A stretch of 64,000 bases of DNA, from the NCBI GenBank assembly GCA_023663825.1, contig JAMPGQ010000003.1, positions 1 to 64,000 of the forward strand. Direction: 5' to 3'. Position 1 is the first letter of the stretch. Each line of letters starts with the position of its first letter. Positions 4,380 through 31,188 of the stretch are shown one piece after another. This DNA comes from Anaeroplasma bactoclasticum (GTDB taxonomy: Bacteria; Bacillota_I; Bacilli_A; Acholeplasmatales; Anaeroplasmataceae). The translations under genes were made by a program, and so were the position numbers. A model generated the notes under the pieces. That model made no database searches. It was not told where the DNA came from and saw only the letters and a program-made list of their open reading frames with translations.

Positions 4380-4465
4380 GGAAATCGATAAGTCTAATGT
4401 CGAACAAAAATTTATAAGGAGGAAAAGTACAATCATTTAGACAATTTTTGATTTACTATATTTCA

Positions 4466-5062
4466 ATGTTTATGAAACAACAACAATACATTACATCACA
4501 TAGGTTCCGTGTGAAGAGAGCAAAAGCTTATTGCAATGAGTCCCCAGAACCTATTACTATCTTCGATAGAGAAGCACTAGTGGAATTTTATCTGTTAGAA
4601 GATGTAGTTCGTCTTTATGAATACAGATTGAAAAACGAGAAACAAAAGATTGTTGACACTGTAGCAGGTAAAAAAGCAAAAAATCTTAATTTAGAAAAAT
4701 TCACCGCTATAATAAATATTTTCAAAGCGGCAATTGAAGTTGCATGGGCGGAGATAACTTCGGGAAATTACAGTTCAGTTTGGAAAGCCATTCCAGAGCA
4801 TGCTCTTATGAAAGCAGCTGGCAGTACAAAGTATTTACCAGAGTTAAAAGCAATAGCAGTTGATTTGTTAAAAGCTCTTTCTAATGATTCATTAAATGCA
4901 ACTTTACAAAATCAAATGCTTGATTCTGCTCTTGCTGAGCTAGAAGACCACGAGGCAAATGTTCGTAGAGTAAAAGGTATTCCATCTACAGAAGAGATAG
5001 AGGAAATAATTAAAGCTGTAGAGTTGATAATTCCAGACAAGAAAAAAACAAATCTAGTATAA
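4466..5062 (+). CDS. Unknown helical protein, first gene of the ESCRT-like cluster
   Basis: About 198 residues, almost entirely predicted helix, with no signal peptide, membrane segment or recognised motif. The N-terminus is basic (RFRVKRAKAY) and there is a Trp-containing middle (AWAEITSGNYSSVWKAIPEH). The start is unresolved: a perfect AAGGAGG lies at 4416-4422, but no ATG, GTG or TTG follows at 5-10 nt; the first in-frame candidates are TTG 4448, ATG 4466 and ATG 4472, 25-49 nt away. Only 16 nt separate it from the ESCRT-III-like gene, so a shared role is likely. Function unknown. Confidence 0.7.
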   Translation: MFMKQQQYITSHRFRVKRAKAYCNESPEPITIFDREALVEFYLLEDVVRLYEYRLKNEKQKIVDTVAGKKAKNLNLEKFTAIINIFKAAIEVAWAEITSGNYSSVWKAIPEHALMKAAGSTKYLPELKAIAVDLLKALSNDSLNATLQNQMLDSALAELEDHEANVRRVKGIPSTEEIEEIIKAVELIIPDKKKTNLV

Positions 5063-5078: not shown

Positions 5079-5705
5079 ATGGCAAAATTAAGTAATGAAG
5101 AAAAAATTATTGGTACACTTGACAAATTGGATAAGTCCTATAGAGATTTACATAAGTTTGGGGCTAAATACGATTATCATATTGATCAAGCGGCTATGCG
5201 TGGAGATGATGCTAGAGCTAAACAGTTAATCAAACAAAAAATTGGGGTTTATTCTTTAGCAGAGCAATTATCAACATTAAAAGCAAATATCGAATTGGGT
5301 GCTTATACATCACAGGTTGCTTCTAATTTAGGTTCCCTTCCAGATGCAATTGCTGGATGCAAGGGTTTATTAGCAGAATCACCTAACTTTAAAAAGCTGG
5401 GTGATAGCATAAAGAGAATTTTTAAAGATATGCAAAAGCCTGCTGATGAAATAGCGAAATTGAATGGTATTCTTGATGGAGTTCTTGCTCCAAAATCTGA
5501 AACAAGCACTTTAACAAGTCGTCTAGATGGTGTAAGTGAAGATGAAACCTCCGATCAATTTAAGGCTGAATATGCTGCTATGATGGAAAGAATTAAAGCT
5601 AAAGTTACACCAGAAATGGTTTCTAAGCCTGTTGAAACTGTAGATACTGCTACAGGTGATATAGATTATGCTGGTATTGTAGAAGAAGAAAACAAGAAGA
5701 AGTAA
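5079..5705 (+). CDS. ESCRT-III/Snf7-like helical protein
   Basis: A 208-residue soluble, nearly all-helical protein. Several features resemble the ESCRT-III core: a first long helix (residues ~5-45), then RGDDARAKQLIKQK at ~42-55, which mirrors the GDxxxAKxxxxxK segment between helices 1 and 2 of CHMP/CdvB proteins, then a long helix (SLAEQLSTLKANIELG), shorter helices with KKLGDSIKRIFKDMQ, and an acidic Ser/Glu-rich C-terminal tail ending in DIDYAGIVEEENKKK. Size and order match ESCRT-III. The strongest support is context: the next gene encodes a Vps4-type AAA ATPase with an MIT-like domain, the usual partner. Homology is inferred from pattern, not proven; a generic coiled-coil adaptor is the alternative. 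Confidence 0.6.
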   Translation: MAKLSNEEKIIGTLDKLDKSYRDLHKFGAKYDYHIDQAAMRGDDARAKQLIKQKIGVYSLAEQLSTLKANIELGAYTSQVASNLGSLPDAIAGCKGLLAESPNFKKLGDSIKRIFKDMQKPADEIAKLNGILDGVLAPKSETSTLTSRLDGVSEDETSDQFKAEYAAMMERIKAKVTPEMVSKPVETVDTATGDIDYAGIVEEENKKK

Positions 5706-5715
5706 GGTGAAGTAT

Positions 5716-6918
5716 ATGGCAGAGGCAAGCATGATTAGTATTTTTAATGGTAAAGTAAGTGCTTTTAATAATGCACTTAAGAATGATGATTCAGAACAAG
5801 TCTGTGCAATCGGTATTGACATGCTTCATATTGCATTAGATGAATGTGCAAAAGCCAATGTCAGTACAACAATAAAGGATACATATAAAAGGCAAGCTAT
5901 GACAGCTTGTACTCATATTGCAAATATGGCAAGAAAACCACGTCATTCTTTACAATCACCTAGTGATGTAGAGGGTGAAAATGATCCATATTATGTAAAA
6001 AAAGAGTGGTTTTCAAGTGAAGTTCCACCTTTAAATTTCACCAATATAATTGGTGTACAAGAGGTCAAAGATGCTTTTATGGTTGATGTGGTTGCACCAC
6101 TACGACCAGAATTTAAAGAGATTTACAAAAAGTTCCGAGGGGATCAAATGGGTAGCCAAATCTTACTCTATGGTCCTCCTGGAACAGGTAAGACACATAT
6201 AGTAAAGTGTTTAGCTGGTGCATTAAACTGCAAAATTGCAGTTGTTCAAACAAGTGAAGTTTTAGCTAGCATAGTAGGGGTTGCCGAAAAGAACATCAGA
6301 GATGTTTTTGAGCAAGCTGGTGAGCTAGATCGTTGTATTATTTTCCTAGATGAAATAGATAGTATTTGCAGTGATAGAAATTCTGATGACTCTCGTCATA
6401 CTAAATCTATTTTAACTACAATGCTAACTTGTATGGATGGTTTTTTAAAAACCAAAAAAGATGGGCAACTTAGAATTATTGTTGCTGCAACAAATCTACC
6501 ATGGAAATTAGATTCAGCTTTAAAACGTGGTGGTAGATTCGAAACACAAATTTACGTACCCTTGCCTGATGAAAAGGCGAGGGAAAAGTTTATTGAATTA
6601 GACCTTTCTAAACTTCCTCATAGCACAGAAGTCACTATTAAAGGCCTTGCAAAAATGCTTGAAGGATATTCGGGGGCTGATATTAAGGCTATAATGAAGC
6701 AAATTGCGAACGAACCTTTAAGAAGAGAGGTTAAGAATATTTTAAATCCTGAAATCAAATGTGCTTTAGGCGAAGTAATCACATTGAAAGATTGTGAAAA
6801 TGTAATTAAAAATTATATTAATGTAGTTACACCTGAGATGTTATTACACTTTGAGGCGTATGATAAAGGTATTTCTTATGAAGAATTAGTAAAGGTGTTA
6901 AAAAGTAAAAATGACTAA
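5716..6918 (+). CDS. Vps4/katanin-like AAA ATPase with MIT-like N-terminus
   Basis: A 400-residue ATPase. Residues 1-75 form a three-helix MIT-like domain; residues ~100-400 form an AAA domain of the classic type, starting with FTNIIGVQEVKDAF. Walker A is GPPGTGKT (153-160), Walker B IIFLDEID (Asp212, Glu213), sensor 1 VAATNLPWKLD, and the Arg-finger region LKRGGRFETQIYVPLPD matches Vps4/katanin/spastin. The C-terminus also resembles that clade (EGYSGADIKAIM, then TPEMLLHFEAYD). The pore-loop aromatic, Trp in Vps4, is replaced: SIVGVAEKN. ATG 5716 is preferred over GTG 5707 because GGTGA (5706-5710) spaces correctly. Likely role: remodelling of the ESCRT-III-like neighbour or other clients using ATP. 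Confidence 0.85.
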   Translation: MAEASMISIFNGKVSAFNNALKNDDSEQVCAIGIDMLHIALDECAKANVSTTIKDTYKRQAMTACTHIANMARKPRHSLQSPSDVEGENDPYYVKKEWFSSEVPPLNFTNIIGVQEVKDAFMVDVVAPLRPEFKEIYKKFRGDQMGSQILLYGPPGTGKTHIVKCLAGALNCKIAVVQTSEVLASIVGVAEKNIRDVFEQAGELDRCIIFLDEIDSICSDRNSDDSRHTKSILTTMLTCMDGFLKTKKDGQLRIIVAATNLPWKLDSALKRGGRFETQIYVPLPDEKAREKFIELDLSKLPHSTEVTIKGLAKMLEGYSGADIKAIMKQIANEPLRREVKNILNPEIKCALGEVITLKDCENVIKNYINVVTPEMLLHFEAYDKGISYEELVKVLKSKND

Positions 6919-7900
6919 AAGTAATATTATTGCAACGTATTATACTAATGCGAAAGAATTAATCAAGCAAAAAAATCCTATAGCAGCACGATCTTACGTT
7001 TTGCAAATACTAAATGCTGCTGTCCAGACGTACAACTCTGCTACGTCTATTTTGCTTAAAGCCAAGACAGCAGCATTTTTGGATAGATGGATATTAGTTT
7101 CCAAAGATTTATATGATAAAGGAATTACTGATTATGTATTAGAATGCTTTGGTTTATCCAGCCAAGCATTAAGCTCATCTAGTAATTCGAAGCTAAATTC
7201 CATTCCGAAACAACAGGAAAATAAATCAGATGATTCTATCGACTTTATGGGATTGATAGAAGAGACCTCAAAAACTCAAGGGTGGTGTGCTGAATTGTTT
7301 GAAAAATACAAGTCAGCTGTTGTCCAACTTACAATTCAGACCTCTAATAATAATGCAACTGGCACTGGATTCATTATCTCGAATAAGGGATATTTATTAA
7401 CCAATGATCATGTGGTGTATGATAAAGAAAGCAATAATTATTATAAAAAAATAAAAATGTCTTTTACTGATAGTAAGAAAAATTATCCAGTTGAGGTTTT
7501 ATTTTCTGATAAAAAAACGGATATCGCTTTATGTAAGTTTAATTTTAAAGAGATAGAAAATATGTCTGTAATTAAGATGATTTCAGACTACAACAAGTTA
7601 TTGCAAGGGGCAGATTGTTTAGTGATTGGCAATGCCTTTGGAATGGGGCTTGCTCCATTTACTGGTGTTGTAAGATTTACAAAAAATGATAAAGGAGACT
7701 TGGTCTATACAGCACCTTCAAACCCAGGAGATTCAGGAGGTCCTGTTCTAAATCGTCAAGGAGAATGTATAGGCATAAATAAATCAAAAATGGTTGCAGT
7801 TAATGGTGTTCAAGCAGAAGGGTATGCAAATGCTACCTCTGCTGAAATTATAAATCAAATTTTAGATAAATGGATAAGAAATAATAACATTGAATTTTAG
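6911..7900 (+). CDS. Trypsin-like serine protease with MIT-like N-terminal domain
   Basis: A 329-residue protein without signal peptide, so cytoplasmic. Residues 1-85 are a helical domain resembling that of the neighbouring AAA proteins. Residues ~100-110 contain SIDFMGLIEE, which matches the tail of the ESCRT-III-like protein. Residues ~135-325 are an HtrA/trypsin domain with a complete catalytic triad: His167 (TNDHVV), Asp204 (TDIAL) and Ser275 (NPGDSGGPV). There is no PDZ domain. It overlaps the Vps4-like gene by 8 nt. Cytoplasmic trypsin-like proteases with short helical adaptors are known from bacterial conflict systems, where they are thought to be effectors or to cleave partner proteins; that role here is inferred. 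Confidence 0.85.
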   Translation: MTKSNIIATYYTNAKELIKQKNPIAARSYVLQILNAAVQTYNSATSILLKAKTAAFLDRWILVSKDLYDKGITDYVLECFGLSSQALSSSSNSKLNSIPKQQENKSDDSIDFMGLIEETSKTQGWCAELFEKYKSAVVQLTIQTSNNNATGTGFIISNKGYLLTNDHVVYDKESNNYYKKIKMSFTDSKKNYPVEVLFSDKKTDIALCKFNFKEIENMSVIKMISDYNKLLQGADCLVIGNAFGMGLAPFTGVVRFTKNDKGDLVYTAPSNPGDSGGPVLNRQGECIGINKSKMVAVNGVQAEGYANATSAEIINQILDKWIRNNNIEF

Positions 7901-7914
7901 AAAGGATACAAAAG

Positions 7915-9345
7915 ATGGAATTTAGAGATTTATTTAGAGAAAAGTATAGAATAGCTTTGCTAGCTGCAAGAAAGAATAATCAGGAAGAAACTTTAGCAGG
8001 CTTACTTGATTTATGTGATCTTTTTTCGGAGCAATATAAAAAAAATAATGGGGATACCATTCTGATTAAAGCTAAGCTTTGCTATTGGAAAGAAACTTTC
8101 GAAAAATATGCATACATAATTCGTAAGTTTGGAATAGGTGATCGAAGAATTCAAAAATTATTCGGGCTTGTAGATGATCAAAATTTGCCATCTTTTGAGG
8201 ACATAATAAAAGGAAAGGGAAAGGTAGATGTTTCTGAGGATGTAGGCGCATCAGAACGTATTTCTATAGAAGGGATTGTCCCTCCAGTTTCTGAAGAAGT
8301 ACCAGAAGAAAAGCAAATAGAAAACCCAATTCCTGTCGAATACCCACAAACTCCTGTAATACCTCTTCAAGAAAAACCAGTTTATACTCCAGAATCTTTA
8401 AAAGGATTTATTGGACAAGCTCATATAGTAAAAGACTTATTAAAGGAAGTTGCAATTGCTAAAAATGAGGGGAGAAAACACCTTGATAACATTTTATTGT
8501 TCGGAAATCCTGGATTAGGAAAAACCACTTTAATGAAATTAATTGCTGATGAATTAGGGGTTAAATTTGAATTGCTTGATTGTTCTCAATTTAGAAATAG
8601 CCAACAATCACTAAAAGCTTTACAAAATTTCTTCATGAGAATTGCAAGAGATAATGAGCCTGTTGTTATAGCATTAGATGAGATACATATGCTTACAGAT
8701 GAACTTCAGTCTAGTTTGCTAACACTTTTAAATAACCGTGTTTATGTTTCTCCTTTAGATGTAAATGGTCAATGCAAACGTATCCCTATTGAAGAATTTA
8801 CATTTATAGCAGCTACAACAGATGATGATAAAGTATTACCTACAATCAAGAATAGATGCCTTAGATTAACATTTCAACTAATAGATTATACTTTAGATGA
8901 ATTAAAACAAATTTATAAAAATAAGGTAATGTCAAAAGGTTTAACAATAACAGATGAAGCAATTGAAACTTGTATTCCTCGTAGTCGAGGTGCAATCCGT
9001 TATGTAAATTCTATTGTTGATGGTCTTAATAATGCTTTATACAATGATGAAGGTGTTCGTATATCTACGAATATAGATTTAGATTTAGCACTAGCCTATT
9101 TTGAAGAAAAGGGTATTGATGCAATAGGTTTGGATAAAAAAGATCTTGAAATTCTCAACGTTATTCAACAAGAAAATAGTGGAGTAATTAGTGCTGATGT
9201 GTTGTCAGCTAGAGTAGGATTAGAAACAAAGAAATATCTATCAGAATATGAAAGATATTTAATTAAAATTGGTTTTATATCAGTGTCTGGTAGAGGAAGA
9301 AGTCTTACTGATAAAGCTATAAATTATTTAAAGGAGGAAAAATAG
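7915..9345 (+). CDS. RuvB-like AAA ATPase with MIT-like N-terminal domain
   Basis: A 476-residue protein. Residues 1-80 resemble the helical N-termini of the two preceding proteins; 90-155 is a Pro/Glu-rich linker. From ~160 onward it reads like RuvB: LKGFIGQAHIVKDLLKEV, Walker A GNPGLGKTT (197-205), Walker B IALDEIH (Asp255, Glu256), sensor ATTDDDKVLPTIKNRC, and a RuvB-type winged helix at the end (GLDKKDLEILNVI, YLIKIGFISVSGRGRSLT). True RuvB is ~330-340 residues, without this N-terminal extension, and works with RuvA; no ruvA or ruvC is near. It is probably a specialised paralogue acting inside this operon, perhaps on DNA or on partner proteins. Confidence 0.85.
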   Translation: MEFRDLFREKYRIALLAARKNNQEETLAGLLDLCDLFSEQYKKNNGDTILIKAKLCYWKETFEKYAYIIRKFGIGDRRIQKLFGLVDDQNLPSFEDIIKGKGKVDVSEDVGASERISIEGIVPPVSEEVPEEKQIENPIPVEYPQTPVIPLQEKPVYTPESLKGFIGQAHIVKDLLKEVAIAKNEGRKHLDNILLFGNPGLGKTTLMKLIADELGVKFELLDCSQFRNSQQSLKALQNFFMRIARDNEPVVIALDEIHMLTDELQSSLLTLLNNRVYVSPLDVNGQCKRIPIEEFTFIAATTDDDKVLPTIKNRCLRLTFQLIDYTLDELKQIYKNKVMSKGLTITDEAIETCIPRSRGAIRYVNSIVDGLNNALYNDEGVRISTNIDLDLALAYFEEKGIDAIGLDKKDLEILNVIQQENSGVISADVLSARVGLETKKYLSEYERYLIKIGFISVSGRGRSLTDKAINYLKEEK

Positions 9346-9346
9346 T

Positions 9347-10087
9347 ATGACTAAGGAAAACTTTTTAAAAATGGTTGAAACCAGTACTTTGGATGCAACA
9401 CTAAAAAAAGAATATTTATATAAATATGAGAATCTTTTGGCAATAGTAAAGCCTCAACAAATTTTAATACAGGATTTAAACGAATTTGAAAAAGAATATT
9501 TATTTGAAATATTTATACGAAATAATGATTATGAGAAAATAAAAAGCAAATTATCTGATATATATAAAAAATTAAATAATTGGCTGATATATAAGTACAT
9601 ACCATTAAATATAAAGGAAATTGCAGATGTGACAAAAGGACTAGCTCATACCGCAAGGACTGCTGTATTTAAGCATAAATGGGATAAAATAATGCATAAA
9701 AGGAGCCATTGGCTTTTTATATTATTCATCGTTTTATTTTGCATTTTATCGGGGGCAGTTGCTATTTTTTCATTTCTTGAAATGTTTAAAGTTTTAAAAA
9801 CAAATGGAGAAATTTCTGCAATTTGTGGAATTCTAGATTTCATTAATGGTATAGTATTTTTTATTGTAGAAAGAATTGATGATGCTAAAAAGAATAGTAT
9901 GGAACAAAAGTGTGATGAGGCTTTAGGTAATACGGAAATTAATATAAATCCAAAGAATATAGATAAGAGAAAGTTTAAAACAAAATTAAAAAATAGTAAT
10001 AATAATGTAATTGTGAATGGAGACATTTCTGTTGATTTAGATGATTATCTTTATCTTAAAGGAAATAGGAAAGAGGAATTTTTGTGA
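9347..10087 (+). CDS. Two-TM membrane protein
   Basis: A 246-residue protein of unknown family. Residues 1-110 are helical and charged; two hydrophobic helices at ~121-147 and ~155-175 (HWLFILFIVLFCILSGAVAI; ISAICGILDFINGIVFFIV) probably form a membrane hairpin with both ends in the cytoplasm. The tail contains KLKNSNNNVIVNGDISV, repeated in altered form at the very start of the next protein. AAGGAGG (9331-9337) lies inside the preceding gene, and the stop overlaps the next start (GTGA), so it is translationally coupled on both sides. It may tether the cytoplasmic components to the membrane. Confidence 0.7.
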   Translation: MTKENFLKMVETSTLDATLKKEYLYKYENLLAIVKPQQILIQDLNEFEKEYLFEIFIRNNDYEKIKSKLSDIYKKLNNWLIYKYIPLNIKEIADVTKGLAHTARTAVFKHKWDKIMHKRSHWLFILFIVLFCILSGAVAIFSFLEMFKVLKTNGEISAICGILDFINGIVFFIVERIDDAKKNSMEQKCDEALGNTEININPKNIDKRKFKTKLKNSNNNVIVNGDISVDLDDYLYLKGNRKEEFL

Positions 10088-13000
10088 ATAAATTAAAAAA
10101 TAGTAATAATAATTTAATTTTCAATAGTGATGTTTATATTTATATAAACATTGTACAAGGCAGTGAAGGAAATCCTAATTCTGAAACCTCAAAATCTGTT
10201 TCTTCGGGAAAAGAAATTTCACTAAATATTTACACAGATGATTTAAATTCAAAAAATCCTAATTGGATTAATGATTTAAGTAAAGGATCTTCCAATTCAC
10301 AGATGTTAGAATTTATTTTTACTAAGGTTAAACAAAATTTAACTCAGATAAAAATGGAAGAAGAAAGTGGATTAAAAGATATAGTAAGTGATGCTGTAGA
10401 CCATGCTTTTGCAACGTATCTTTTGGAACACAAGGAAAAAGGCTCATTAATAATGGCAGATAGTATAGCTAGTAGTTTTGAATATAAAAAAGATATAGAC
10501 TACCTGAACTCCATTAAGGATGTAATTCCGAAAGCACAAAACAAGTATTTTGTGTTTTTGTCAGCTATTACAAAGAAAAAAAATAATAATAAAGAAAATA
10601 CTATAGAGTATAAAGTGGCATTGCAACTGAAAGAGTATTTTGAAAAAAAAGATATTGGCGTTTTTTGGTGGGAGGACCCGAGTATCAAAAGTCATAATTG
10701 GAATATTTCTACTAAAATTGCGATGGGGCTTGGTTTTTCAACAGTTTTTGTTGGATTGGCTTTTGATTCTATAAGCAAAGATAAAGAAAAAGGAAATTAT
10801 ATATATAATTGTCTTTTTGATGATAAAAATGCTTACAAAACACCAAACTTTTTTAAGTATGAAGTAAGTAAATTTAGTTTATTGTTTAATAAAAAAGAAT
10901 CAAAAAAGTTTTTCAAGGGCATAATTAACACCAAATCTGATTTTTCAAAATTTGTACCAAAGCAAAGATTTATGCGATTTTTCACTTTTGAATCACCTAA
11001 GGATTTTACTCCTTATCCTGATTTTAACGGTAAGGAGGATAGATGGATTTCAATTGATGAGCCATTAGGTTCTTTTAGCGAGGAGGAAAAGATTCAAGCA
11101 ATATTTAATAAAATTGTGCAAAATTTAGAAAATCTTCCATTTCAAAATTTCAAAAATAACAAATATGATGATTTATATAAACCTTTTGACATTACAAAAA
11201 TGAATGATCAGCCGTATACAGATGATTTTTTAAAAGATCAAACATCACCCAGTTTAAATGAAAACTATCAAATGATACCTTCTGATTATTTTTTTGAATA
11301 TTTGATTATAGACAAGAACGGAAAAAATGCTAAAAATCATTTTCTTATTTTCCCAGAAAAAGAATATACGAAAACAGGAAATATAAGTTGGAATATCAAA
11401 CTTATAGTAAAAGATTGGAATTATAAGGAAATTTTTAACAAATCAAGCTTATTGAGCGACTATGAAAAGATTGGAATCACAAAAAGTTTTGATAGTGAAT
11501 TTGATGGGGAAACTTATCCAACTTGGACTAGGAAAGTCTATGATGATTCTAAATCATGTGCATATGATTTATGTACAGATGTATTTACGAATAATGAAGG
11601 TAAAATGCAGGGTAAAATTTTATTGATGAAAAGAGATGGAGAAAAAATTGAATTTTATTACTCTATTAATTTTATTCCTAAACAAATCATTAGATATCGT
11701 ACTAAAAATAGAAGAATTAAATTGCTAGATAAGACAAATCTTCCATTAAAAATAAAAATTGCTTTTCCAAAAAGTACTGACAATGGTATTGGGTGCTTAA
11801 CCAATTCTGGGCTAAGAGATGACGAATATATTCTTAAAAACAATCTAAAAGTATCTGGGTTGAAAAAAGGGTGTAGATTGAGGCTGCAAAAAACAACAAA
11901 AAATAAGTATATAATTTTAAAATCTATGGATAGTCAAGCTCTTGATATGATAAAACCACTAAAGTCAAGCCCCCAGAGATGCATTCTTTGTGGCAATATT
12001 GTTTCAAAAAAAATCAAAACTTCTTGCATGGGAGTGTCTAAGCAAAAGGAAAACCCTAAATGCAAGCATAATTATATTTATGATGTATTTGATTTTGAGG
12101 ACAATGATTCTGCACAACGGCAATTTAAAATAAAAGATATTGAAGTTCAAAAGGATAACAAAACCTATATTTATAAGTGTGAAACAGATCAGTTACCACC
12201 ATCTCCTACTAAAAACTCAGAAATGGCTTTGCCAGAAAATTTTAGAAATGGTGTAGTAATTTCCTTTGTAGGAGAGTCTAAAACTGGAAAATCTACCTTT
12301 ATTTCTAGTCTATTTGGTGTATCCAATAATATGGTACATGATAATATCATAAACAATTCATTGCAACCATATGTTTCCAAAACATCATTCTATTGTGATA
12401 ATGTTCCAACAAATTACAAAGAAAATATGAGCAGATATATTTTGGAACATGATTATACTGCTTTAAAATATGGTGATTTTATTAAGCCGACTAGTAATGT
12501 GGGGGAAACGGAACCATTTGCAAGATCACATATACCATTTATATTGAGACTTGAAGGTATACAAAATAGTGATGAAGAAGCATATCTATCGTTTTTTGAT
12601 GCACCTGGTGGAACGATGTATAAAAAACTTAAAAATAATGATAAACCATACGATACTCCATTTTCTGAAAAAAATAATGATTATGTGATGTTATTTAAGT
12701 CAGATAGTATTATTTTAATTGTAAACGGCACGCCAAAACCAAATGAGGAACAGCAAAATGAATTAAATGTAGATGGTGTCACCCAAATTTTACGATCTAT
12801 AGATGCTTATAAGGAAAAAACGAAAGAGTTCTATGAAAAAACTATTTTGGCAGTGGTTTTATGTAAATTTGATGAGTTTGCTAAGGACTTTGATGAAAAT
12901 AGTTATACAAGAATGACTGCACCTACTGCATATGCTAGAATTTTCAAGAATTCTGAGCGGCATAAGTATATTGAAATGTGTTCTAAAGAAATAAAAAGCT

Positions 13001-13230
13001 ATTTAAATAGTTTTAATCAAACTTCAGGATTATTAAATGAAATAGATAAATATAAGCACCATTGTTTTTTTGCAACCTCTTCCATCGGAAGAACAGATTC
13101 TGTTATTAGAAAAATAGATATTGATTCTGATAGTAAAAAAGATACCACACAGTCAATCTTTTTTACTACACCATATAATATAGAAAATATTCTATTATGG
13201 ATTATGTATCAAAAAGGCATTATTTTATAA
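10084..13230 (+). CDS. TIR-like, zinc-finger and GTPase fusion protein
   Basis: A 1048-residue multidomain protein with no TM segment. Residues ~150-330 look like a TIR/SEFIR-type domain: KYFVFLSA, YKVALQLKEYFEKKDIGVFWWEDPS and STVFVGLAFDS fit its first strands and helices. A Cys cluster starts at 633 (CILCGN, later Cys/Cys-x-His). Residues ~715-1048 are a P-loop GTPase: GESKTGKST (730-738), a G3-like DAPGG (839-843) and a G4-like CKFD (927-930). This resembles the double-GTPase/GAP1 conflict systems, in which a GTPase partners a GAP1 protein, here probably the next gene. The GTG start overlaps the previous stop by 4 nt. The TIR call is tentative; the GTPase call is strong. Confidence 0.75.
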   Translation: MNKLKNSNNNLIFNSDVYIYINIVQGSEGNPNSETSKSVSSGKEISLNIYTDDLNSKNPNWINDLSKGSSNSQMLEFIFTKVKQNLTQIKMEEESGLKDIVSDAVDHAFATYLLEHKEKGSLIMADSIASSFEYKKDIDYLNSIKDVIPKAQNKYFVFLSAITKKKNNNKENTIEYKVALQLKEYFEKKDIGVFWWEDPSIKSHNWNISTKIAMGLGFSTVFVGLAFDSISKDKEKGNYIYNCLFDDKNAYKTPNFFKYEVSKFSLLFNKKESKKFFKGIINTKSDFSKFVPKQRFMRFFTFESPKDFTPYPDFNGKEDRWISIDEPLGSFSEEEKIQAIFNKIVQNLENLPFQNFKNNKYDDLYKPFDITKMNDQPYTDDFLKDQTSPSLNENYQMIPSDYFFEYLIIDKNGKNAKNHFLIFPEKEYTKTGNISWNIKLIVKDWNYKEIFNKSSLLSDYEKIGITKSFDSEFDGETYPTWTRKVYDDSKSCAYDLCTDVFTNNEGKMQGKILLMKRDGEKIEFYYSINFIPKQIIRYRTKNRRIKLLDKTNLPLKIKIAFPKSTDNGIGCLTNSGLRDDEYILKNNLKVSGLKKGCRLRLQKTTKNKYIILKSMDSQALDMIKPLKSSPQRCILCGNIVSKKIKTSCMGVSKQKENPKCKHNYIYDVFDFEDNDSAQRQFKIKDIEVQKDNKTYIYKCETDQLPPSPTKNSEMALPENFRNGVVISFVGESKTGKSTFISSLFGVSNNMVHDNIINNSLQPYVSKTSFYCDNVPTNYKENMSRYILEHDYTALKYGDFIKPTSNVGETEPFARSHIPFILRLEGIQNSDEEAYLSFFDAPGGTMYKKLKNNDKPYDTPFSEKNNDYVMLFKSDSIILIVNGTPKPNEEQQNELNVDGVTQILRSIDAYKEKTKEFYEKTILAVVLCKFDEFAKDFDENSYTRMTAPTAYARIFKNSERHKYIEMCSKEIKSYLNSFNQTSGLLNEIDKYKHHCFFATSSIGRTDSVIRKIDIDSDSKKDTTQSIFFTTPYNIENILLWIMYQKGIIL

Positions 13231-13279
13231 AATGAATGAAAGGAATATTATTTTTATAATATTTTAAGGTGATAGTAAA

Positions 13280-16200
13280 ATGAGAACATGTATTCAAGTG
13301 GCTTGTTTAGACGAAGGCGATGATCAATCATTTTATTCATATAATTCTAATGGAAATACTTCCCTTGTTTCTATTTCACGAACAAGTGCTGAAAAAGTAT
13401 TTTCGATTAATTCTAGTTTTAATAATTCAATTGATGGAGCAATGGTTTATAATTTTGATAATGCAACTAAGATTAATAAGTTTGCTTACAAATCTACCAA
13501 AAGTGTAAATTCTTATGATGGTTATTTATTATACATTTTTTTTGATTGTGATGATTCAAATCCTTTTAAAAAAGAATATTGTATTGATTATATGGATAGT
13601 TATCCTGAATGGATAAAAAAAGGATTGACAACAAAAGATGTAAATTACAATTTGCAAAATTTTACATTATGGTTTCGACCAAATAAAACTGTAAACACAG
13701 CTTTAGCAAAAACAAAAAAGAAAATTTTATCAGTCATAATTGATAAAATTCTAGAAATTAAAAAAAAGGATCCAGTCATATCAAGCATAGGACTTGTTTC
13801 AGAACAACTAAATGCAGAGGATTTACACAATATATTAAAGTGTGCATTAAGAAGTTTGCCTGTTAGCCTTGCAAATCAATATTCTTTTGATGTTAATGCT
13901 GGAAGTAGTATTAGAGGATTGGATATATATTGCACTACAACTATAAAAGAAATAGAGTGCCACGATTTAAAAAATTTGATAATTAATATAGATCATGAAG
14001 ATATATATGAAAATTATAAATTTAATAATTTATATGCAGAATATTTGTGTATATCTTCAGACTTTTGTTCAAATCTGCTCGAAAACGATGTTTTTGATTC
14101 TCTGTCTAATGCCGATGAAATTATTGACGAATTAAATTCAATGTTTTTATCCCACATAGTAAATTTAAGATTTTCATCCTCAGAAGATTTAACGGATGTA
14201 GTCTTAGATGATTATAGGCGGATTCTTGATAAGGTGAAAGAAACTGAGGTTTCAAAAAAGATAGGATTAAATCTTGCTAGCAAGATTTTCTTCAAATCAA
14301 ATTTTTTCTCTATATCAAAAGAAAATAAGGATTATTTTTTTGAAAATTTTTTGACCAATGATGTAGATTTCGACGCAAAGCTAGATGAAAAATGTATTAA
14401 TCAGGTTTTTAATGCTGCTAATAATTCTGAGGATATTAAAAAATATTTTGCATTTTTATTAGATTGTTTAGAGAAAAATGTAGTTGTTAGTATTCAAAAA
14501 AATATTAAGTCCTTTTTGTATGATGATTTTAACGATAGAAATGCAATACAAAGTAATAAGAAACCGATATCTATGCTAGTAGATTATTTTTTAGAAGAAA
14601 GTGATAAATCTTCATTTTTGGAAATCTTCTCCTCAAATTATGATTTAATATCTCTTTTTAATATTATTAAATCTGCTTTAGCCACTCTACCTAAAGAGTG
14701 TAGGAATCTTTATCAATTCGAAAAAATAATAAATGAGGCTGATGCAGGGTTCGTTTTAAAGAAAGAAAAAAGTGCTGGGCTTTCTAAAAAAATTCCTATT
14801 GGTATTGATATTAATTATAGTTATAAAAACTTATATGCAGAGTATATGAATTTAGATTATTTGGATGCAGTTTCTATTAATGAAAACTTAACAGATAGTG
14901 AAAATGTAATCGAACAGTTAAATTTGTTGGCAGGAGTCAAATTAATTAATTCGTTGTATAAAAAAAACATTTTAGAAGAATTCGATATAGATAATTGTCA
15001 AAAATTATTGATGTCAAAATCAAATGAACAATTAAATCAACTCTCTGTTGATATGGCTTATAAAATATTTTTTAGCTCCAATTTCTATAAAATATGCGAT
15101 GAATCGGAAAGGATAACTTTTTTTAGCAATTATTTAGATGGAACACCTTCAAACTTGTATTCCAAAGACAATTACGTCCAAAATATGATAAGTGTATTAG
15201 GGGAAAATTATTCTACCGAACAAATAAATAAATATTTTGATTTTTTAATGGATTATTATGTTAGAGAAAAAAATTCAAGCTTGAAAGTTTTAGAAGAAAG
15301 TGTAGGAATTGTTTTATATTGTAATTTTGATTCGTATTCTGTCGATATGCGTAATAAATTTATTTCTTGGTGGCAAAGTATGAATGATTTAGAGATACGC
15401 AAATATTTTAGTCAATGTTGGAATTATAAAGAGAGCGAATTCATCAATGAATATATTCAGAATGCTCCTTTCGATCTTAAAATGTGTATTCTTGAAACAT
15501 ACAAAAGTACGAATTTAAAAAAAGATGACGAGAACAATTGGATAATGAATATATTTAAAACACTATATTTTGATAAAATGGATTATTTTTCTCAAGTATA
15601 TGAGCTTTTATCCTCGAAAATTACTATTTCAAAGGGATTGAACGCCTTTTTTTGCTTGAAATTCAGTGAATTTTTAACTGGTTATTTTAATACTATTAGT
15701 AATGAAATTACTAATACTAATCTTAAGTTTTTTGAGGATCAGATTAATCAACTAGATGCTACTGCAACAAAGTTAAATTTCAATAAGAAAAATGAAAATT
15801 ACAAGAAATTAGTATCAAAAATGAATGAAAGTTTATTGAAAGAAAAAAGACTTGATATACTTTCTGAGGAAAATCAACGGAGTATAATTTTTGATTCAGA
15901 ATTACCTATTACAGGACCTAGAGAAGAAAAAAGAAAAAGATGGATAGATCGATGTTTCAAAGAAAGAAAAGATGGTAAAACTGGTTATAAGAATAATAGC
16001 GGAGGAAAACCAATGCGATTTGTAATTAGTAGCTTGATTTCGTATTTGATAATATTAGTGATTTTGTGGGTATTAAATGTTTTGATTATACCGTATTTAA
16101 GAAATTATGGTATATTAACCATATTTATAAAAAATGAGATTATTTGCACTTCTATTTTTTCTATATTTTTAATTTGTGGTTGCTTTGTTATTCATTTATA

Positions 16201-16336
16201 TTACTTTATTATAGCATGTAATCATGAGTCATATATTCGTCATACAAGTGTTGCATTTAGAATTGTAGTTTACTATTTTTTATCTGTGTGTATAATTTTT
16301 CTAATGTTATTGTTGAGCGGTTTATTAATATTTTAG
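13280..16336 (+). CDS. GAP1-like protein with C-terminal membrane helices
   Basis: A 1018-residue protein. The N-terminal ~170 residues are beta-rich. Two copies of a helical module follow, about 277 residues apart: NILKCALRSLPVSLANQYSF (near 184) and NIIKSALATLPKECRNLYQF (near 461), each followed by an NLYAEY segment and an (A/Y)xKIFFxSNF segment. The AL-x-x-LP...-(Y/L)-x-F pattern recalls GTPase-associated protein 1 (GAP1) domains. The last ~105 residues contain three or four hydrophobic helices, so it is membrane anchored, mostly cytoplasmic. RBS AAGGTGA precedes ATG 13280. Its position right after the GTPase gene supports a GTPase-partner role. Homology to GAP1 is by pattern only. Confidence 0.6.
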   Translation: MRTCIQVACLDEGDDQSFYSYNSNGNTSLVSISRTSAEKVFSINSSFNNSIDGAMVYNFDNATKINKFAYKSTKSVNSYDGYLLYIFFDCDDSNPFKKEYCIDYMDSYPEWIKKGLTTKDVNYNLQNFTLWFRPNKTVNTALAKTKKKILSVIIDKILEIKKKDPVISSIGLVSEQLNAEDLHNILKCALRSLPVSLANQYSFDVNAGSSIRGLDIYCTTTIKEIECHDLKNLIINIDHEDIYENYKFNNLYAEYLCISSDFCSNLLENDVFDSLSNADEIIDELNSMFLSHIVNLRFSSSEDLTDVVLDDYRRILDKVKETEVSKKIGLNLASKIFFKSNFFSISKENKDYFFENFLTNDVDFDAKLDEKCINQVFNAANNSEDIKKYFAFLLDCLEKNVVVSIQKNIKSFLYDDFNDRNAIQSNKKPISMLVDYFLEESDKSSFLEIFSSNYDLISLFNIIKSALATLPKECRNLYQFEKIINEADAGFVLKKEKSAGLSKKIPIGIDINYSYKNLYAEYMNLDYLDAVSINENLTDSENVIEQLNLLAGVKLINSLYKKNILEEFDIDNCQKLLMSKSNEQLNQLSVDMAYKIFFSSNFYKICDESERITFFSNYLDGTPSNLYSKDNYVQNMISVLGENYSTEQINKYFDFLMDYYVREKNSSLKVLEESVGIVLYCNFDSYSVDMRNKFISWWQSMNDLEIRKYFSQCWNYKESEFINEYIQNAPFDLKMCILETYKSTNLKKDDENNWIMNIFKTLYFDKMDYFSQVYELLSSKITISKGLNAFFCLKFSEFLTGYFNTISNEITNTNLKFFEDQINQLDATATKLNFNKKNENYKKLVSKMNESLLKEKRLDILSEENQRSIIFDSELPITGPREEKRKRWIDRCFKERKDGKTGYKNNSGGKPMRFVISSLISYLIILVILWVLNVLIIPYLRNYGILTIFIKNEIICTSIFSIFLICGCFVIHLYYFIIACNHESYIRHTSVAFRIVVYYFLSVCIIFLMLLLSGLLIF

Positions 16337-16351
16337 TAGGAGGTATTTTTA

Positions 16352-17374
16352 ATGAATAGAAAATCAGAAAAGAAGTTACTATTAATTGCTCGTAATTCGG
16401 CAACTATTCTTTTTATACTTTTTATAATTATGTTAATATGTATTCTTGTCAAATTAAATTCTAATTTTGATAATGATGGTAGGATAATAAAAGATGAAAA
16501 AACTTTTGTAAGTGCACTTTTAAATAATAATAGCACAAAGCAAAATCAAAATTATTATATTGCAAATGCATTTGACATAAATATAGAAAGTTTACCTCAA
16601 GAGAATATTATTTTTTATGGTAACTTAGATGGACGAGGCTATCAAATTAATATTAAATCCAAAAATACCGAACCTGCTTATTTAGAACACCCTATATTAT
16701 ATAAAATAGAGAATGATGCAAATATTTCTGGACTTAATATAAAATTAGAAAAAAGTGTGATACTAGGTTCAGTAGATGGTAAAAAGGATTGTGCATTATT
16801 ATCAAATTATAATTATGGATCAATAAACAATTGTTTTGTTGAAGTTGAACGTCAATGTATAGGAAAGAATTGTTCTAATGCTGCTTCCTTAGTCAACTAT
16901 AATTTTAGTGAAATTTCAAATGTTTGCTTGAAATTAAAAGAATTATCTGCTGTAGATAATTCAATTGGAAATTGGAAGTGCCGTTTTGGTGCACTAGTAA
17001 CAATTAATTTTGGAGTAGTTGAAAATATTTTGGCTGACATTCATTTTGAATTGGATATAAGCACTAGATTAGATGTATTTAGGAATGGCTATAATAATCA
17101 ATTTGTGGGATATTTATTCTGTGAGTTGTCGAAGAATTCAAAGGTTAGTGATATTTATTTGTTCGGTAGAACAGAACAAGGTGTTGCTTTTCCATATTGG
17201 GAAAAGGCTTGCGATACAGGTATAATTGGATATAACAAAAAAGATTATTTAGAAATTACGGATTCGTTTTTTTTGGAATTAAGGAAAAATGCTGATTGGG
17301 AGAATTATTGGAAATTAGATAAAACAGAGGATTTTCCCGTGCTAAATATAGGACAAAAACATAAGATGAGGTGA
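16352..17374 (+). CDS. Membrane-anchored GLUG/beta-helix-like protein
   Basis: A 340-residue protein with one N-terminal membrane helix (~residues 8-36, LILFILF-type hydrophobic core after a Lys/Arg-rich start), so the bulk is probably outside the cell. The exterior part has short imperfect repeats of the GLUG/beta-helix kind: GNLDGRGYQINI, NDANISGLNIKLE, NYGSINNCFVEVE, NFSEISNVCLKL, NFGVVENILADI. Such solenoids are typical of adhesin-like surface proteins. AGGAGG (16338-16343) precedes the ATG; the gene follows the GAP1-like gene by 15 nt and precedes the next by 4 nt. A related but lipidated protein is encoded at 44359. Ligand unknown. Confidence 0.65.
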   Translation: MNRKSEKKLLLIARNSATILFILFIIMLICILVKLNSNFDNDGRIIKDEKTFVSALLNNNSTKQNQNYYIANAFDINIESLPQENIIFYGNLDGRGYQINIKSKNTEPAYLEHPILYKIENDANISGLNIKLEKSVILGSVDGKKDCALLSNYNYGSINNCFVEVERQCIGKNCSNAASLVNYNFSEISNVCLKLKELSAVDNSIGNWKCRFGALVTINFGVVENILADIHFELDISTRLDVFRNGYNNQFVGYLFCELSKNSKVSDIYLFGRTEQGVAFPYWEKACDTGIIGYNKKDYLEITDSFFLELRKNADWENYWKLDKTEDFPVLNIGQKHKMR

Positions 17375-17378
17375 TAAA

Positions 17379-20300
17379 ATGGCTGAAAATAAGGAAATTA
17401 CTAAAAAAATTATTAGAAACAAGGTAATTGTTATTTCGCTACTCTCCGTACTATTTATATTTAGCGTTTTTTTGGCTACTTATAAACTTTTTCAAAAGCA
17501 GTCCAGTCAAAATGAAATATCATTAGTTTTAACTTCCTCAACTGGAGATAGTATCTATGTCGGAGGCGAAGGAGAAATTTTTGCTTTACTAGTCACGGAT
17601 GGTGAAGATGAACAGTTGCAAGGAACTTTTCTTTATGAGAGTGATAGTGAAATGCTTCAGTTCATTAATGAAACTGGAAAATTTAGAGTAAATGATGTTA
17701 TTTTAGATGGTTTTGATTATAATGATTCAGTAAGTATTACTGTTACTTGCAACATTAATGATATACATCTAACTCAAGTTATTTCTCTTCGAATAACTGA
17801 AGCTATACCACATAAAATAACGTTTGTCTATCCTGATAAAAATGATGTTATTTCATCTGTGATTGGTGAAGATTATGTTATATATGAAGGATATTGTTTA
17901 AATGAAATACCTACACCTAGTTTTGGTGTTCATCAGTATAAATGGATAGTTGATGGAAGCAACGAAGAATATAATCCTTTGACGGATAAATATTATTGGC
18001 ATGGAGATATAGTTTTGTCTGCAAAATTCGAAGAAACCAGTATTATTTTTAGAGATGAATTAAATAATACCACAGATAGTCAATCAACAAAAGTTATTTA
18101 TGGAGAAACAATAAATACTGATTTGTGGAATAGACCGCTTGATAAAGATGGGTGGCATTTTGTAGGATGGTTTCCAGATATATCTTCTGATGAACTAGAA
18201 AATGGCGTAAAGGAACATAAATTTTGCCTTTTGACTAATGAATTAGTGGCAAAATGGGAGGCAAAACCCATAATCGACCCCTTATTTAATACAAAAGATG
18301 CAATTCCATCTAATATTTCAGTTGTTTATAATATGGAAATACAAGGATTAATGAATCCCAATTACTTAAATGATGGCATATTCATAGAATGGGTTACAAG
18401 TGATAATGATGGTATGGAGATATCTATTCATAATGGAAGTATGTATCCGTTAGGAACTAATATGAAGATTTATGCCAAGATTAAATTTCCTATTGAATTT
18501 AATTACGAAGGAACTACTGAGAATGTCGAAAATGAGAAAAAACAGTATTATATAATATATAATGAATCTTTATCTTCTCAAAACATTTCTTTACCACAAC
18601 CATTATATTTACAAGAGAATGGATGGAAATTCGATGGATGGTATACAGATATTGGTGGTGCTGGTAAGCAGTGGACTTCCGATAGTAAGTATGTAGAAAA
18701 AATAAAAGACAATGAAAGTGGGAAATTAAGATTATATGCAAAAAGAATATCAAGTATAACCTATCATAGACTTTTAGATATCAATGGAGAAGCAACAAAT
18801 GAAACAATCACCGTCCCTATAGTATACAGGCAAAATATAAATATAATATCAGAAGAAAATATTTTATCTGATGAAAAGATTGTATGGAAGTTTGATGGAT
18901 ATTATAATGTTCCAAATGGTGTATTTCAATTAAATGATACCGAAAACGAAAAAATAGATTCTTTAAAGAGTTATACTGGAAAAGGAGAAATAAATTTATT
19001 TGCTCGTTGGTCCTCTTTTATACATTTTACTGTGGATTTAGCAAAATATGCAGATCCTACCAAGCCATTAGGATCAACTCAAAGTGATTTATCAGTTATA
19101 TATAATGGAGAGTTGCCTATACTTCCAAAGGTAAATTACACAATTTCTAATGATGATACATATTTTGAAGGATGGTTTACTGAAGAATACGGTTTTGGTA
19201 AGCAAATTCAACAAGGTGAACTTTATAAAGGATATGGAGAGCAAACTTATCATAGTAGGACAAGGATGACAATTTATTTTAATGATCCCTTACATCAAGT
19301 ATATGAAAGACGAGACTTCATTTATGGAAAATCTTTAGAAGAATGCAAAAATATCGTAGAAAATGCAACCATTCCAAACTTTGAAGAAAAAGGATGGAAA
19401 CATACTGGATGGTCTGTAAAGGATTTGGGGGATATAGAGATAGAGGATTTTTTGAATTTACCTTACTCATTCATTACACCATATTTATTTGATGCTAATT
19501 GGGAAATTACGATTTTTTATGATACGGATTTGGGAAGTATTCAAAATGTTTATGGTAATATGAATAAATATGACACATATCGATATGGGCAGATGCTTAG
19601 ATTAAAAAGACCGGGTAAGCAAGGGTCTTGGGAATTTGCTAATTGGTATACGGAGTTATATGGCAAAGGAATATGTCTTGAGGATATATCTACAAGCAGT
19701 GAAGAATTTATCAATATAGTTAAAAGTAATAGTGAGCTTATTGAAGGAGTATATTGTGTTAGAATATATGCAAAATGGGTTTCGCGAACACTTTTAAACT
19801 ACGGAAATGGATACGAGCCAAACGAAAATTTAGCAAAACAACTAGAATTTATTTATGGACAAGCACAAGCTCAACTTCCCTCAAATGAAGAAATCTCTGA
19901 CAGGGATGGCTATTCTAAGGGAAATTGGTATAATAATAGTGATTTTTCAGGCGATTCAATAACAAAAAATACCACTATATTTCCACTGGATTTTAGTACA
20001 ATCTATTACGAATGGATTGGAGGAACATGTATGGTTTATTTAGATTATATTGGAGAAACAGGAACAAGATATCAAGTCGCATATTTGAATAATGTTATTA
20101 GAGGAAATGATATGCCTGAAATATCAAATGATATTTTACCTAAGAAGGATATTCCAAAGAATGCAGGTGTTTTCTTAGGATATTATTGTGAAGAAAACAA
20201 TAATATTTACTATAATTACAATGAAGAAGTAGGATTCACAAGTGCACGCATTTTTGATATAGTTGGAAGTGAAGTTCATTTGATCGGAAAATGGGGAGTT

Positions 20301-21509
20301 TCTTATTCAGTGCTCTTAGATTCGAATGGAGGAAGTGGAGGAACGACATCAATAAATGTAGTATATGAACAAGAAATGCCAAGTAATGCTAAAATTGTGT
20401 CACCTACAAGATATGGCTATACTTTTAAGGGTTATTATGATAATAAGACTGATTTAACAGATGAACACATGTATTATAATGCTGAAATGAAAAGTACCCA
20501 AAATTGGAACAGAGCATCGGGAGGTACATTATATGCAAAATGGTCTGCAAATCAATATAGGATAACTTTTGATTCTAACGGGGGTAATTCTCCAAGTTTT
20601 ACCAATAATGATTATATTTTTGGGAAACCATTTGGTATTTTGCCTACAGTAACTAAAAGTTCCACTTCTAGAAAAACATTCTTCACCACTATAGTCACCA
20701 GTTATGAATTTGTTGGATGGTATACGGATGATGAGACAAAAATCACAAATAATTCTGTTCTTTCACTTGCTGGTAATCAAACATTCTATGCTCATTGGAA
20801 ATCAAGTGATTCTGAATGTGTAACTGCTGGAACATTGGTTACTCTTGCGGATGGAACACAACTTCCTGTCGAACAATTGAAAGGTAATGAAGAATTAATG
20901 GTGTGGAATATTTATACTGGAAGAATAGATAAGGCACCCATATTGTTTGTAGATAGTGATCCAGAAGCAGAGTATGAAATTGTGAATCTTATTTTTTCAG
21001 ATGGTACGATAACAAAAGTAGTTACTGAACATGGTTTTTGGGATTATGACTTAAATGAATGGGTTTATTTGAATAAGAATGCCAGTCAATATATTGGTCA
21101 TTATTTTAATAAGCAAAGTTTTGATATAGAAGGCAAGGTATATAACGAAAAAGTTCAATTGAAAAATGTCATTATAACTAATGAGATAACAACAACATGG
21201 AGTCCAATAACATATTCCCATTTTTGCTATTATGTAAATGGAATGTTATCGTTGCCAGGTGGTATCACAGGCTTTTTCAATATATTTGAAGTTGATAAAC
21301 AAATGAAAATAGATGAAACAAAGATGCTTGAAGACATTGAAAATTATGGTTTATTTACATATGATGATTTTAAGGACCTTATTCCAGAAACAGTGTTCAA
21401 AGCATTTAATGGGCAATATCTTAGAGTATCAATGTCCAAAGGATTGATAACTTGGAATGATATTTTATTATTAGTTGACAAGTATGGATCATATTGGGAA
21501 ACAAATTAA
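17379..21509 (+). CDS. Large surface protein with Listeria-Bacteroides repeats and Hint domain
   Basis: A 1376-residue protein: N-terminal signal-anchor helix (~15-36), then an ectodomain with about eight Listeria-Bacteroides (InlB B-type, Flg_new) repeats, recognisable by motifs such as GWHFVGWFPD, GWKFDGWYTD, YFEGWFTEEYG, GYTFKGYYDN and YEFVGWYTD. At ~1147 a Hint (intein/hedgehog-like) domain begins: Cys1147 in CVTAGTLVTLADGTQLPVEQL-type block A and His1218 in VVTEHGFWD block B. The last ~90 residues are helical and acidic. Hint domains cleave or splice themselves; here it could release or process the C-terminal piece. It is the last gene of the cluster, with no cell-wall LPxTG motif seen. 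Repeat and Hint calls are strong; function is open. Confidence 0.8.
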   Translation: MAENKEITKKIIRNKVIVISLLSVLFIFSVFLATYKLFQKQSSQNEISLVLTSSTGDSIYVGGEGEIFALLVTDGEDEQLQGTFLYESDSEMLQFINETGKFRVNDVILDGFDYNDSVSITVTCNINDIHLTQVISLRITEAIPHKITFVYPDKNDVISSVIGEDYVIYEGYCLNEIPTPSFGVHQYKWIVDGSNEEYNPLTDKYYWHGDIVLSAKFEETSIIFRDELNNTTDSQSTKVIYGETINTDLWNRPLDKDGWHFVGWFPDISSDELENGVKEHKFCLLTNELVAKWEAKPIIDPLFNTKDAIPSNISVVYNMEIQGLMNPNYLNDGIFIEWVTSDNDGMEISIHNGSMYPLGTNMKIYAKIKFPIEFNYEGTTENVENEKKQYYIIYNESLSSQNISLPQPLYLQENGWKFDGWYTDIGGAGKQWTSDSKYVEKIKDNESGKLRLYAKRISSITYHRLLDINGEATNETITVPIVYRQNINIISEENILSDEKIVWKFDGYYNVPNGVFQLNDTENEKIDSLKSYTGKGEINLFARWSSFIHFTVDLAKYADPTKPLGSTQSDLSVIYNGELPILPKVNYTISNDDTYFEGWFTEEYGFGKQIQQGELYKGYGEQTYHSRTRMTIYFNDPLHQVYERRDFIYGKSLEECKNIVENATIPNFEEKGWKHTGWSVKDLGDIEIEDFLNLPYSFITPYLFDANWEITIFYDTDLGSIQNVYGNMNKYDTYRYGQMLRLKRPGKQGSWEFANWYTELYGKGICLEDISTSSEEFINIVKSNSELIEGVYCVRIYAKWVSRTLLNYGNGYEPNENLAKQLEFIYGQAQAQLPSNEEISDRDGYSKGNWYNNSDFSGDSITKNTTIFPLDFSTIYYEWIGGTCMVYLDYIGETGTRYQVAYLNNVIRGNDMPEISNDILPKKDIPKNAGVFLGYYCEENNNIYYNYNEEVGFTSARIFDIVGSEVHLIGKWGVSYSVLLDSNGGSGGTTSINVVYEQEMPSNAKIVSPTRYGYTFKGYYDNKTDLTDEHMYYNAEMKSTQNWNRASGGTLYAKWSANQYRITFDSNGGNSPSFTNNDYIFGKPFGILPTVTKSSTSRKTFFTTIVTSYEFVGWYTDDETKITNNSVLSLAGNQTFYAHWKSSDSECVTAGTLVTLADGTQLPVEQLKGNEELMVWNIYTGRIDKAPILFVDSDPEAEYEIVNLIFSDGTITKVVTEHGFWDYDLNEWVYLNKNASQYIGHYFNKQSFDIEGKVYNEKVQLKNVIITNEITTTWSPITYSHFCYYVNGMLSLPGGITGFFNIFEVDKQMKIDETKMLEDIENYGLFTYDDFKDLIPETVFKAFNGQYLRVSMSKGLITWNDILLLVDKYGSYWETN

Positions 21510-24132: not shown

Positions 24133-24136
24133 ACTT

Positions 24137-28301: not shown

Positions 28302-28501
28302 ATGAAAGTTGTTTATAGTGCTCATAGAGTAGAGGAATTATGTACCAACGAGGAAAAGCAATTATTAAATATGGACCCCTTGTAGGTAAAAAACTAATAG
28401 ATTTAGTGATTTTATTAGAAGAAGCAGCAAATCTTTTTGATGTTTCTAAACTTCTACAATATAGACTGCATCCTTTAACTGGAAATAGAAGAGGTGAGTG
28501 A
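28302..28501 (+). pseudogene. Frameshifted and shortened HigB-type toxin
   Basis: ATG 28302 opens MKVVYSAHRVEELCTNEEK, like the start of HigB/RelE plasmid-killer toxins. Near 28355 the homology moves to another frame: AIIKYGPLVGKKLIDLVILL, EEAANLFDV, LHPLTGNRRGE, then TGA 28499-28501. Without correction the original frame ends at 28386. The usual C-terminal strands after GNRRG are missing too, so two lesions exist. Its end overlaps the HigA-like GTG by 4 nt (GTGA). The toxin is probably dead. Confidence 0.8.
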
Positions 28502-31186: not shown

Positions 31187-31188
31187 AT

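Follow-up and report, generated by a model that had tools for sequence, protein, structure and literature searches.

In a 64,000-nucleotide stretch of Anaeroplasma bactoclasticum DNA (GCA_023663825.1, contig JAMPGQ010000003.1, positions 1-64,000 of the forward strand; hereafter the window, whose numbering is used throughout), we found two adjacent genes, encoding a GTPase and a membrane-anchored partner, that we read, with slightly less than even confidence, as a divergent conflict system of the DO-GTPase2/GAP1-N2 type, coupled by a homotypic motif to a membrane effector and to a module of the ESCRT (endosomal sorting complexes required for transport) type. On our best reading, the homotypic coupling and the ESCRT-type module are two unusual additions that are new relative to known DO-GTPase/GAP1 systems. 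The strongest results are the motif pairs that join neighboring proteins and the exchangeable cassette in which the two genes lie. The locus was compared with a sister species (G051), a member of another genus of the same family (G013) and four more distant relatives (G358, G278, G235 and G327). Searches with single proteins in plasmids, phages, viral contigs and the species genome set returned no relatives, and whole-genome searches within the class alone were productive.

The motif pairs, which the first-pass annotation did not include, lie at the junction between a protein with two transmembrane helices (2TM protein) and the product of the gene that follows it:

9347..10087, + strand: 2TM protein, candidate membrane effector, with helices at residues 123-141 and 156-174 by hydropathy
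9983..10033, + strand: junction motif at the C-terminus of the 2TM protein, KLKNSNNNVIVNGDISV; the following protein begins with a match to it (score 67, 0/5000 shuffles)
10084..13230, + strand: protein with a questionable TIR-like module, a Cys cluster and a DO-GTPase2 domain, 1048 amino acids, open and complete reading frame with a GTG start
10090..10140, + strand: N-terminal junction motif of this GTPase protein, KLKNSNNNLIFNSDVYI, matching the C-terminal motif of the 2TM protein

The 2TM and GTPase genes overlap in the window (10084/10087). Orthologs of the 2TM protein in G051 (27%) and G013 (30%) are conserved only in the surroundings of the transmembrane region. In all three readable loci, the motif at the end of the 2TM protein is the motif at the start of the next protein (KLKNSNNN in the window, NST.GxNSPNFxRTKxKNGNIxV in G051 and LQLFGIGN in G013), and the motifs of different loci are unrelated to one another. 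Among 188 adjacent co-directional gene pairs, these junctions ranked 1, 2 and 3 with scores of 115, 67 and 50, the next pair scoring 38; the three scores were equaled by 0, 0 and 6 of 5000 shuffles, respectively. In the G013 pair, five of the ten identical residues are encoded by different codons, with 71% agreement of the nucleotides. In known bacterial amyloid signaling, motifs that are highly diverse between families lie at the C-terminus of a small helical transmembrane protein and at the N-terminus of a receptor encoded by an adjacent or overlapping gene, and the published pairs are tied to NLRs (PMC7889193, PMC8086366, PMC12261475). The junctions have this same layout.

Directly upstream of the 2TM, GTPase and GAP1-like genes lies a row of genes that we refer to as the front block:

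4448..5062, + strand: helical protein of 204 amino acids, function unknown, first gene of the block (orthologs 50-83% identical in G051, G046 and G013, each adjoining Snf7)
5079..5705, + strand: Snf7/ESCRT-III-type protein (Pfam Snf7 3.3e-6, at the curated cut-off)
5707..6918, + strand: classic AAA ATPase of the Cdc48/Vps4 class, whose N-terminal ~70 amino acids form a helical domain (Pfam AAA 1.6e-36)
6911..7900, + strand: HtrA/trypsin-like protease, whose N-terminal ~120 amino acids form a helical domain (Pfam Trypsin_2 1.2e-20; NCBIfam degP/HtrA 1e-26; orthologs 54-84%)
7915..9345, + strand: RuvB-like AAA protein with an N-terminal helical domain (RuvB_N 2.2e-17, RuvB_C 2.5e-14)

The Snf7 ortholog of G051 matches the profile above the Pfam cut-off (1.8e-6) and that of G013 at 1.4e-4. 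The first-pass annotation had placed an ESCRT/Vps4-like unit in the same operon as the GTPase, and this is borne out by the Snf7 match and by the repetition of the gene order in a second genus; the ATPase, however, is nearer Cdc48 (best PDB match, 4e-71) than Vps4 (2.8e-40). The AAA, protease and RuvB-like proteins (window 5707-10087) each start with a short helical domain that could be an MIT-like adaptor for Snf7. MIT domains had been suspected on all three from helix patterns; the AAA ATPase has no MIT profile match, and because the sole signal is a weak likeness between the N-domains of the protease and the RuvB-like protein (hhalign E 0.0027), we do not claim them.

The front block belongs to a mobile, integrase-bearing island with a predicted defence system, which also contains a back block:

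3262..4188, + strand: tyrosine integrase that opens the island (Pfam Phage_integrase 1.8e-28; ortholog 68% identical in the same place in G051)
30626..34483, + strand: back block of a ClpP-like protein, a Sel1-type protein and a coupling-type ATPase of type IV secretion systems (T4SS) (CLP_protease 3.4e-64, T4SS-DNA_transf 4.5e-49)

A search for att repeats bounding the island found none. In G013, the ESCRT-type row, the 2TM protein, the TIR-like GTPase and the GAP1-like gene follow one another in the order seen in the window. The island of G051 occupies the same chromosomal site (flank 93%), with 78-88% identity in the front block and 63-89% in the back block (89/63/82% for the ClpP-like, Sel1-type and coupling proteins); it is without the GTPase, the GAP1-like gene and the GLUG-type surface protein described below, and other genes stand in their place. 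The orthologous operons are thus divided on the combination proposed at first, G013 having all of it and G051 keeping the ESCRT block without the GTPase/GAP1 genes. Since the ESCRT block is kept where the GTPase/GAP pair is swapped, the two behave as separate, exchangeable modules: the front and back blocks persist, and what changes is the middle cassette. No Snf7 gene was seen beside the GTPase/GAP1-like pair of the more distant relatives in the stretches read. In G358 (L013/L014), an orthologous back block (61/29/55%) lies upstream of the DO-GTPase/GAP1-like cassette, and a ClpA/B-type AAA gene and a radical-SAM gene stand where the ESCRT block would be. In G278, a TIR-like protein (L015:4935-6011) and a TIR-like/STAND-type/TPR/kinase-like giant (L016:9270-13091), both recognized by eye, flank the related cassette, which suggests a defence neighborhood.

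Sequence comparison supports the placement of the C-terminal domain of the first protein in the DO-GTPase2 family:

12253..13224, + strand: DO-GTPase2 domain (PF19993 1.7e-5; alignments with a true DO-GTPase2 and with relatives)
11980..12063, + strand: Cys cluster C633/C636/C648/C660, candidate zinc ribbon by sequence reading

The match to PF19993 reaches 25.0 bits (E 1.7e-5), 2 below the curated cut-off of 27 bits; homologs in other genera match the profile too, one of them above the cut-off (L047, 31.1 bits). The GTPase motifs, i.e. the P-loop GESKTGKST at residues 730-738, DAPGG and CKFD (C replacing N/T), align with those of true members, and the window GTPase aligns end to end with a bona fide DO-GTPase2 of the same class (L049), which adjoins a protein with clear GAP1-N2 (1.6e-11) and GAP1-M (3.5e-6) domains. 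Relatives from other families of the class have this C-terminal GTPase as well, and its closing (R/N)IE..(I/L)(L/I)W motif is common to them and to L049. AlphaFold2 (AF2) modeling of the GTPase domain with four sequences gave a pLDDT of 33 and no usable fold. Earlier claims of two reading frames and of a P-loop GTPase, possibly a DO-GTPase, therefore hold: both frames are open and complete (10084-13230, 1048 amino acids; 13280-16336, 1018 amino acids), the motifs are real and the profile match falls just under its cut-off with a relative above it. The Cys cluster announced with them is present at the four residues listed and is missing from the G013 ortholog, the nearest full-length relative.

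The N-terminal part of the same protein had been annotated as a TIR/SEFIR-like domain:

10531..10986, + strand: alpha/beta module, residues 150-301, TIR-like by eye (~38% to G013)

This module is the best-conserved portion of the GTPase protein between the genera; it reads as alternating strands and helices, retains a YE pair and includes a conserved Glu260. A TIR identity found no confirming match in Pfam (full protein and fragment), PADLOC, a genome-wide TIR_2 search or a PDB profile search. The only weak Pfam match, ThsB_TIR at E 0.04, was discarded as it begins ahead of what would be the first strand and aligns in the wrong register, and the PDB profile matches were spurious beta-lactamases. 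AF2 on the single sequence (pLDDT 40) followed by Foldseek yielded nothing with E < 0.001, the model being too poor to count. The annotation thus stands unconfirmed by any of these methods, and the labels are used here with caution, TIR as unproven and GAP1 as GAP1-like.

The second protein is, judging by its sequence, a very divergent partner of the GAP1 type, and two surface proteins are encoded behind it:

13280..16336, + strand: divergent GAP1-like partner, internally duplicated and with membrane helices at its C-terminus (27% over 412 amino acids to the G013 ortholog)
13697..13924, + strand: GAP1-M-like segment, residues ~140-215 (linked by a hidden Markov model, HMM, to the GAP1-M segment of relatives)
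16352..17374, + strand: membrane-anchored GLUG-type surface protein, downstream partner (26% to L014, E 4e-10; that relative matches Pfam Glug)
17379..21509, + strand: large anchored surface protein with Listeria-Bacteroides repeats (Flg_new 9.7e-21; same-position homologs in L014, L017 and L048)

A GAP1-like gene stands directly downstream of the GTPase in six genomes (the window, G358, G278, G235, G327 and G013), the counterparts in the other five being of similar general size and, where complete, with C-terminal helices too. Membrane helices, as annotated at first, are predicted in the window protein (1018 amino acids): three or four, all within the final 100 residues (919-1018). Pfam gave no match to the window protein, whole or in pieces, GAP1 profiles included, and the GAP1-N2 profile found none in any of the six genomes. 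In whole-genome searches with GAP1-M, the best match in G358 and G278 was weak (E 0.05 and 0.18), lay exactly in the gene downstream of the GTPase and spanned profile columns 27-63 and 15-63, the expected segment; elsewhere in the class, matches to GAP1-N2 and GAP1-M are very rare. An HMM of this segment built without the window sequence matched the identical full-length copy of the window protein in locus L001 at 1.4e-6, over two copies, and the protein carries an internal duplication (residues ~150-430 against 430-690; score 217, shuffle maximum 89). Profile-profile comparison of the family with true GAP1 gave nothing because it holds too few sequences. Given the weak matches in relatives and the HMM link to the window, we name the protein GAP1-like rather than GAP1; the membrane partner proposed at the outset is backed by position, architecture and the weak GAP1-M matches of two relatives, but none of the GAP1 profiles matches the window protein itself.

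In the more distant relatives, the GTPase/GAP1-like pair is accompanied by anchored surface proteins, GLUG-type in three of four loci. The final ~300 residues of the large surface protein of the window (ECVTAGTLVTLADGTQLPVEQLKGNEELMVW...) read like a Hint/intein-type self-processing domain, and the L048 homolog aligns there. In the surface protein of G051 (L045:11238-15560), Listeria-Bacteroides and leucine-rich repeats are fused behind an N-terminal 2TM domain that resembles the junction 2TM proteins.

Taking the favored reading as a working model, the membrane-anchored GAP1-like protein would hold or regulate the GTPase switch and would probably sense or relay a trigger together with the two downstream surface proteins. 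Activation would expose or cluster the N-terminal motif of the GTPase, which would then template the matching tail of the 2TM protein in a co-assembly, probably a cross-beta (amyloid-type) stack. This would recruit or polymerize the 2TM protein into a membrane-damaging effector, and the Snf7/AAA/protease block would remodel, extract or cut the membrane assemblies and so set a threshold or end the response. Gene order, conservation, family matches and the matched motifs are what is observed; the defence role, trigger, direction of signaling, amyloid nature, membrane damage and task of the ESCRT-type block are inferred, as is the thresholded abortive response of the first-pass annotation. The fullest form of the model, an NLR-independent bacterial amyloid signalosome in which a GTPase switch passes its state to a 2TM membrane killer by prion-like motifs that differ from locus to locus, with an ESCRT-III/AAA/protease block of the same operon restraining or clearing the membrane assemblies, is put forward only tentatively.

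Several observations weigh against the coupled conflict system. The window motif has a different codon at only one of its 11 identical residues, and its first eight codons are the same in DNA (a 24-nucleotide exact repeat), so a recent duplication is possible there. The sample is three junctions, and the G013 motif is short. In G051 the partner of the 2TM protein is a coiled-coil/zinc-ribbon protein without TIR or GTPase, and the GTPase is therefore not essential to the coupling. The Walker B glutamate (D..GE) is absent from the window GTPase (DAPGG) and present as GE in relatives and L049 and as TPGE in G013, and the NKxD motif of the G013 GTPase is without its lysine; GTP hydrolysis in this branch may therefore be atypical. 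No link of the locus to phages was found.

The exact repeat in the window would also suit a divergent DO-GTPase/GAP1 system of the ordinary kind, in which the TIR-like domain acts as effector, by NAD+ cleavage or nucleotide signaling, and the matching protein ends are a leftover of local duplication or gene conversion with no signaling value. In GTPase-centric systems, TIR domains are known to serve as effectors (PMC7159879), and it is the module at residues 150-301 that is conserved best. We consider this account unlikely: TIR identity failed every test, three unrelated motif pairs occur in three loci, in frame and from C-terminus to N-terminus each time, G013 kept the residues while the codons changed, and G051 has a motif pair without any TIR or GTPase. 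That the repeats act in DNA or RNA, as a translational coupling or recombination site, with protein similarity as a side effect, would fit genes that overlap or nearly touch (10084/10087) and repeats that are AT-rich; it is very improbable, given that all three repeats share the reading frame while differing in sequence by locus and that the nucleotides of G013 drift to 71% with the residues staying.

The locus might also serve no defence at all. It could be a machine of the envelope or for surface display, or belong to a conjugative island, with the ESCRT-type proteins, ClpP block, coupling ATPase and GTPase exporting or anchoring the large surface proteins. Anchored surface proteins lie downstream in the relatives read, the island carries a T4SS coupling-type ATPase and a ClpP-like block that also stands upstream of the related pair in G358, and DO-GTPases are tied to envelope stress as well (PMC11237479). 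On the other hand, the middle cassette turns over fast at one site between sister species, which, like the matched terminal motifs, fits conflict systems better, and the listed open reading frames, not all of them searched against profiles, showed neither a relaxase nor a T4SS mating-channel gene; we therefore rate this alternative as rather unlikely.

Compared with the GAP1-N2-type DO-GTPase conflict systems (Kaur et al. 2020, PMC7159879), the window is alike in having, behind a DO-GTPase2, a GAP1-type protein with transmembrane helices at its C-terminus, a cysteine cluster ahead of the GTPase, Hsp70/actin-like and anchored partners and a variable effector part. It differs in the fused N-terminal TIR-like module and terminal motif, in large anchored repeat proteins instead of an FNIII component, in the ESCRT-III/AAA/protease block, undescribed in that work, in a GAP1 sequence beyond the reach of Pfam models and in the missing Walker B glutamate. 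With the pairs of Bell-domain effectors and NLRs known as BASS (PMC7889193, PMC8086366) it shares a short, locus-specific matched motif with the same termini and gene adjacency, whereas the partner here is a GTPase or, in G051, the coiled-coil/zinc-ribbon protein and not an NLR; the motifs are not assigned to BASS1-10, and amyloid formation is predicted. As in bacterial and archaeal Snf7-Vps4 neighborhoods (PMC11237479), a Snf7-family protein adjoins a classic AAA ATPase; unlike them, the window has an ATPase nearer Cdc48, extra HtrA-like and RuvB-like genes and a linked GTPase/GAP1-like switch.

One further gene between the surface proteins and the back block was assigned:

24122..25948, + strand: actin/Hsp70-like ATPase (MreB-like 1.8e-4; the G051 counterpart, 30%, matches HSP70 at 3.4e-11)

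Before it, the proteins at 22197-23453 and 23446-24132 have in common a 26-residue helical stretch (8/1000 shuffles), at the N-terminus of one and midway in its neighbor, possibly a second homotypic adaptor. Around the island are a Fic protein with weak Bro-N similarity (97-1011), a small gene pair with a ParE-family toxin (2368-2941) and a helix-turn-helix plus M78-peptidase (HigA-like) protein (28498-29583).

A review of amyloid signaling asks whether bacteria have NLR-independent signaling amyloids (PMC7889193). The locus offers three candidate pairs that are compact, open to testing and outside NLRs, and they come from Firmicutes, not from filamentous bacteria. They are connected to a GTPase switch, on whose family the literature found is sequence-based only, and adjoin an ESCRT-III-type unit. 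In animals, ESCRT-III counteracts membrane damage in regulated cell death and repairs membranes during necroptosis (PMC9622947). If the coupled system is real, it would parallel, in bacteria, the RHIM/MLKL death that ESCRT-III counters, and death signaling through short self-matching motifs with ESCRT-type membrane control would be older and more modular than thought.

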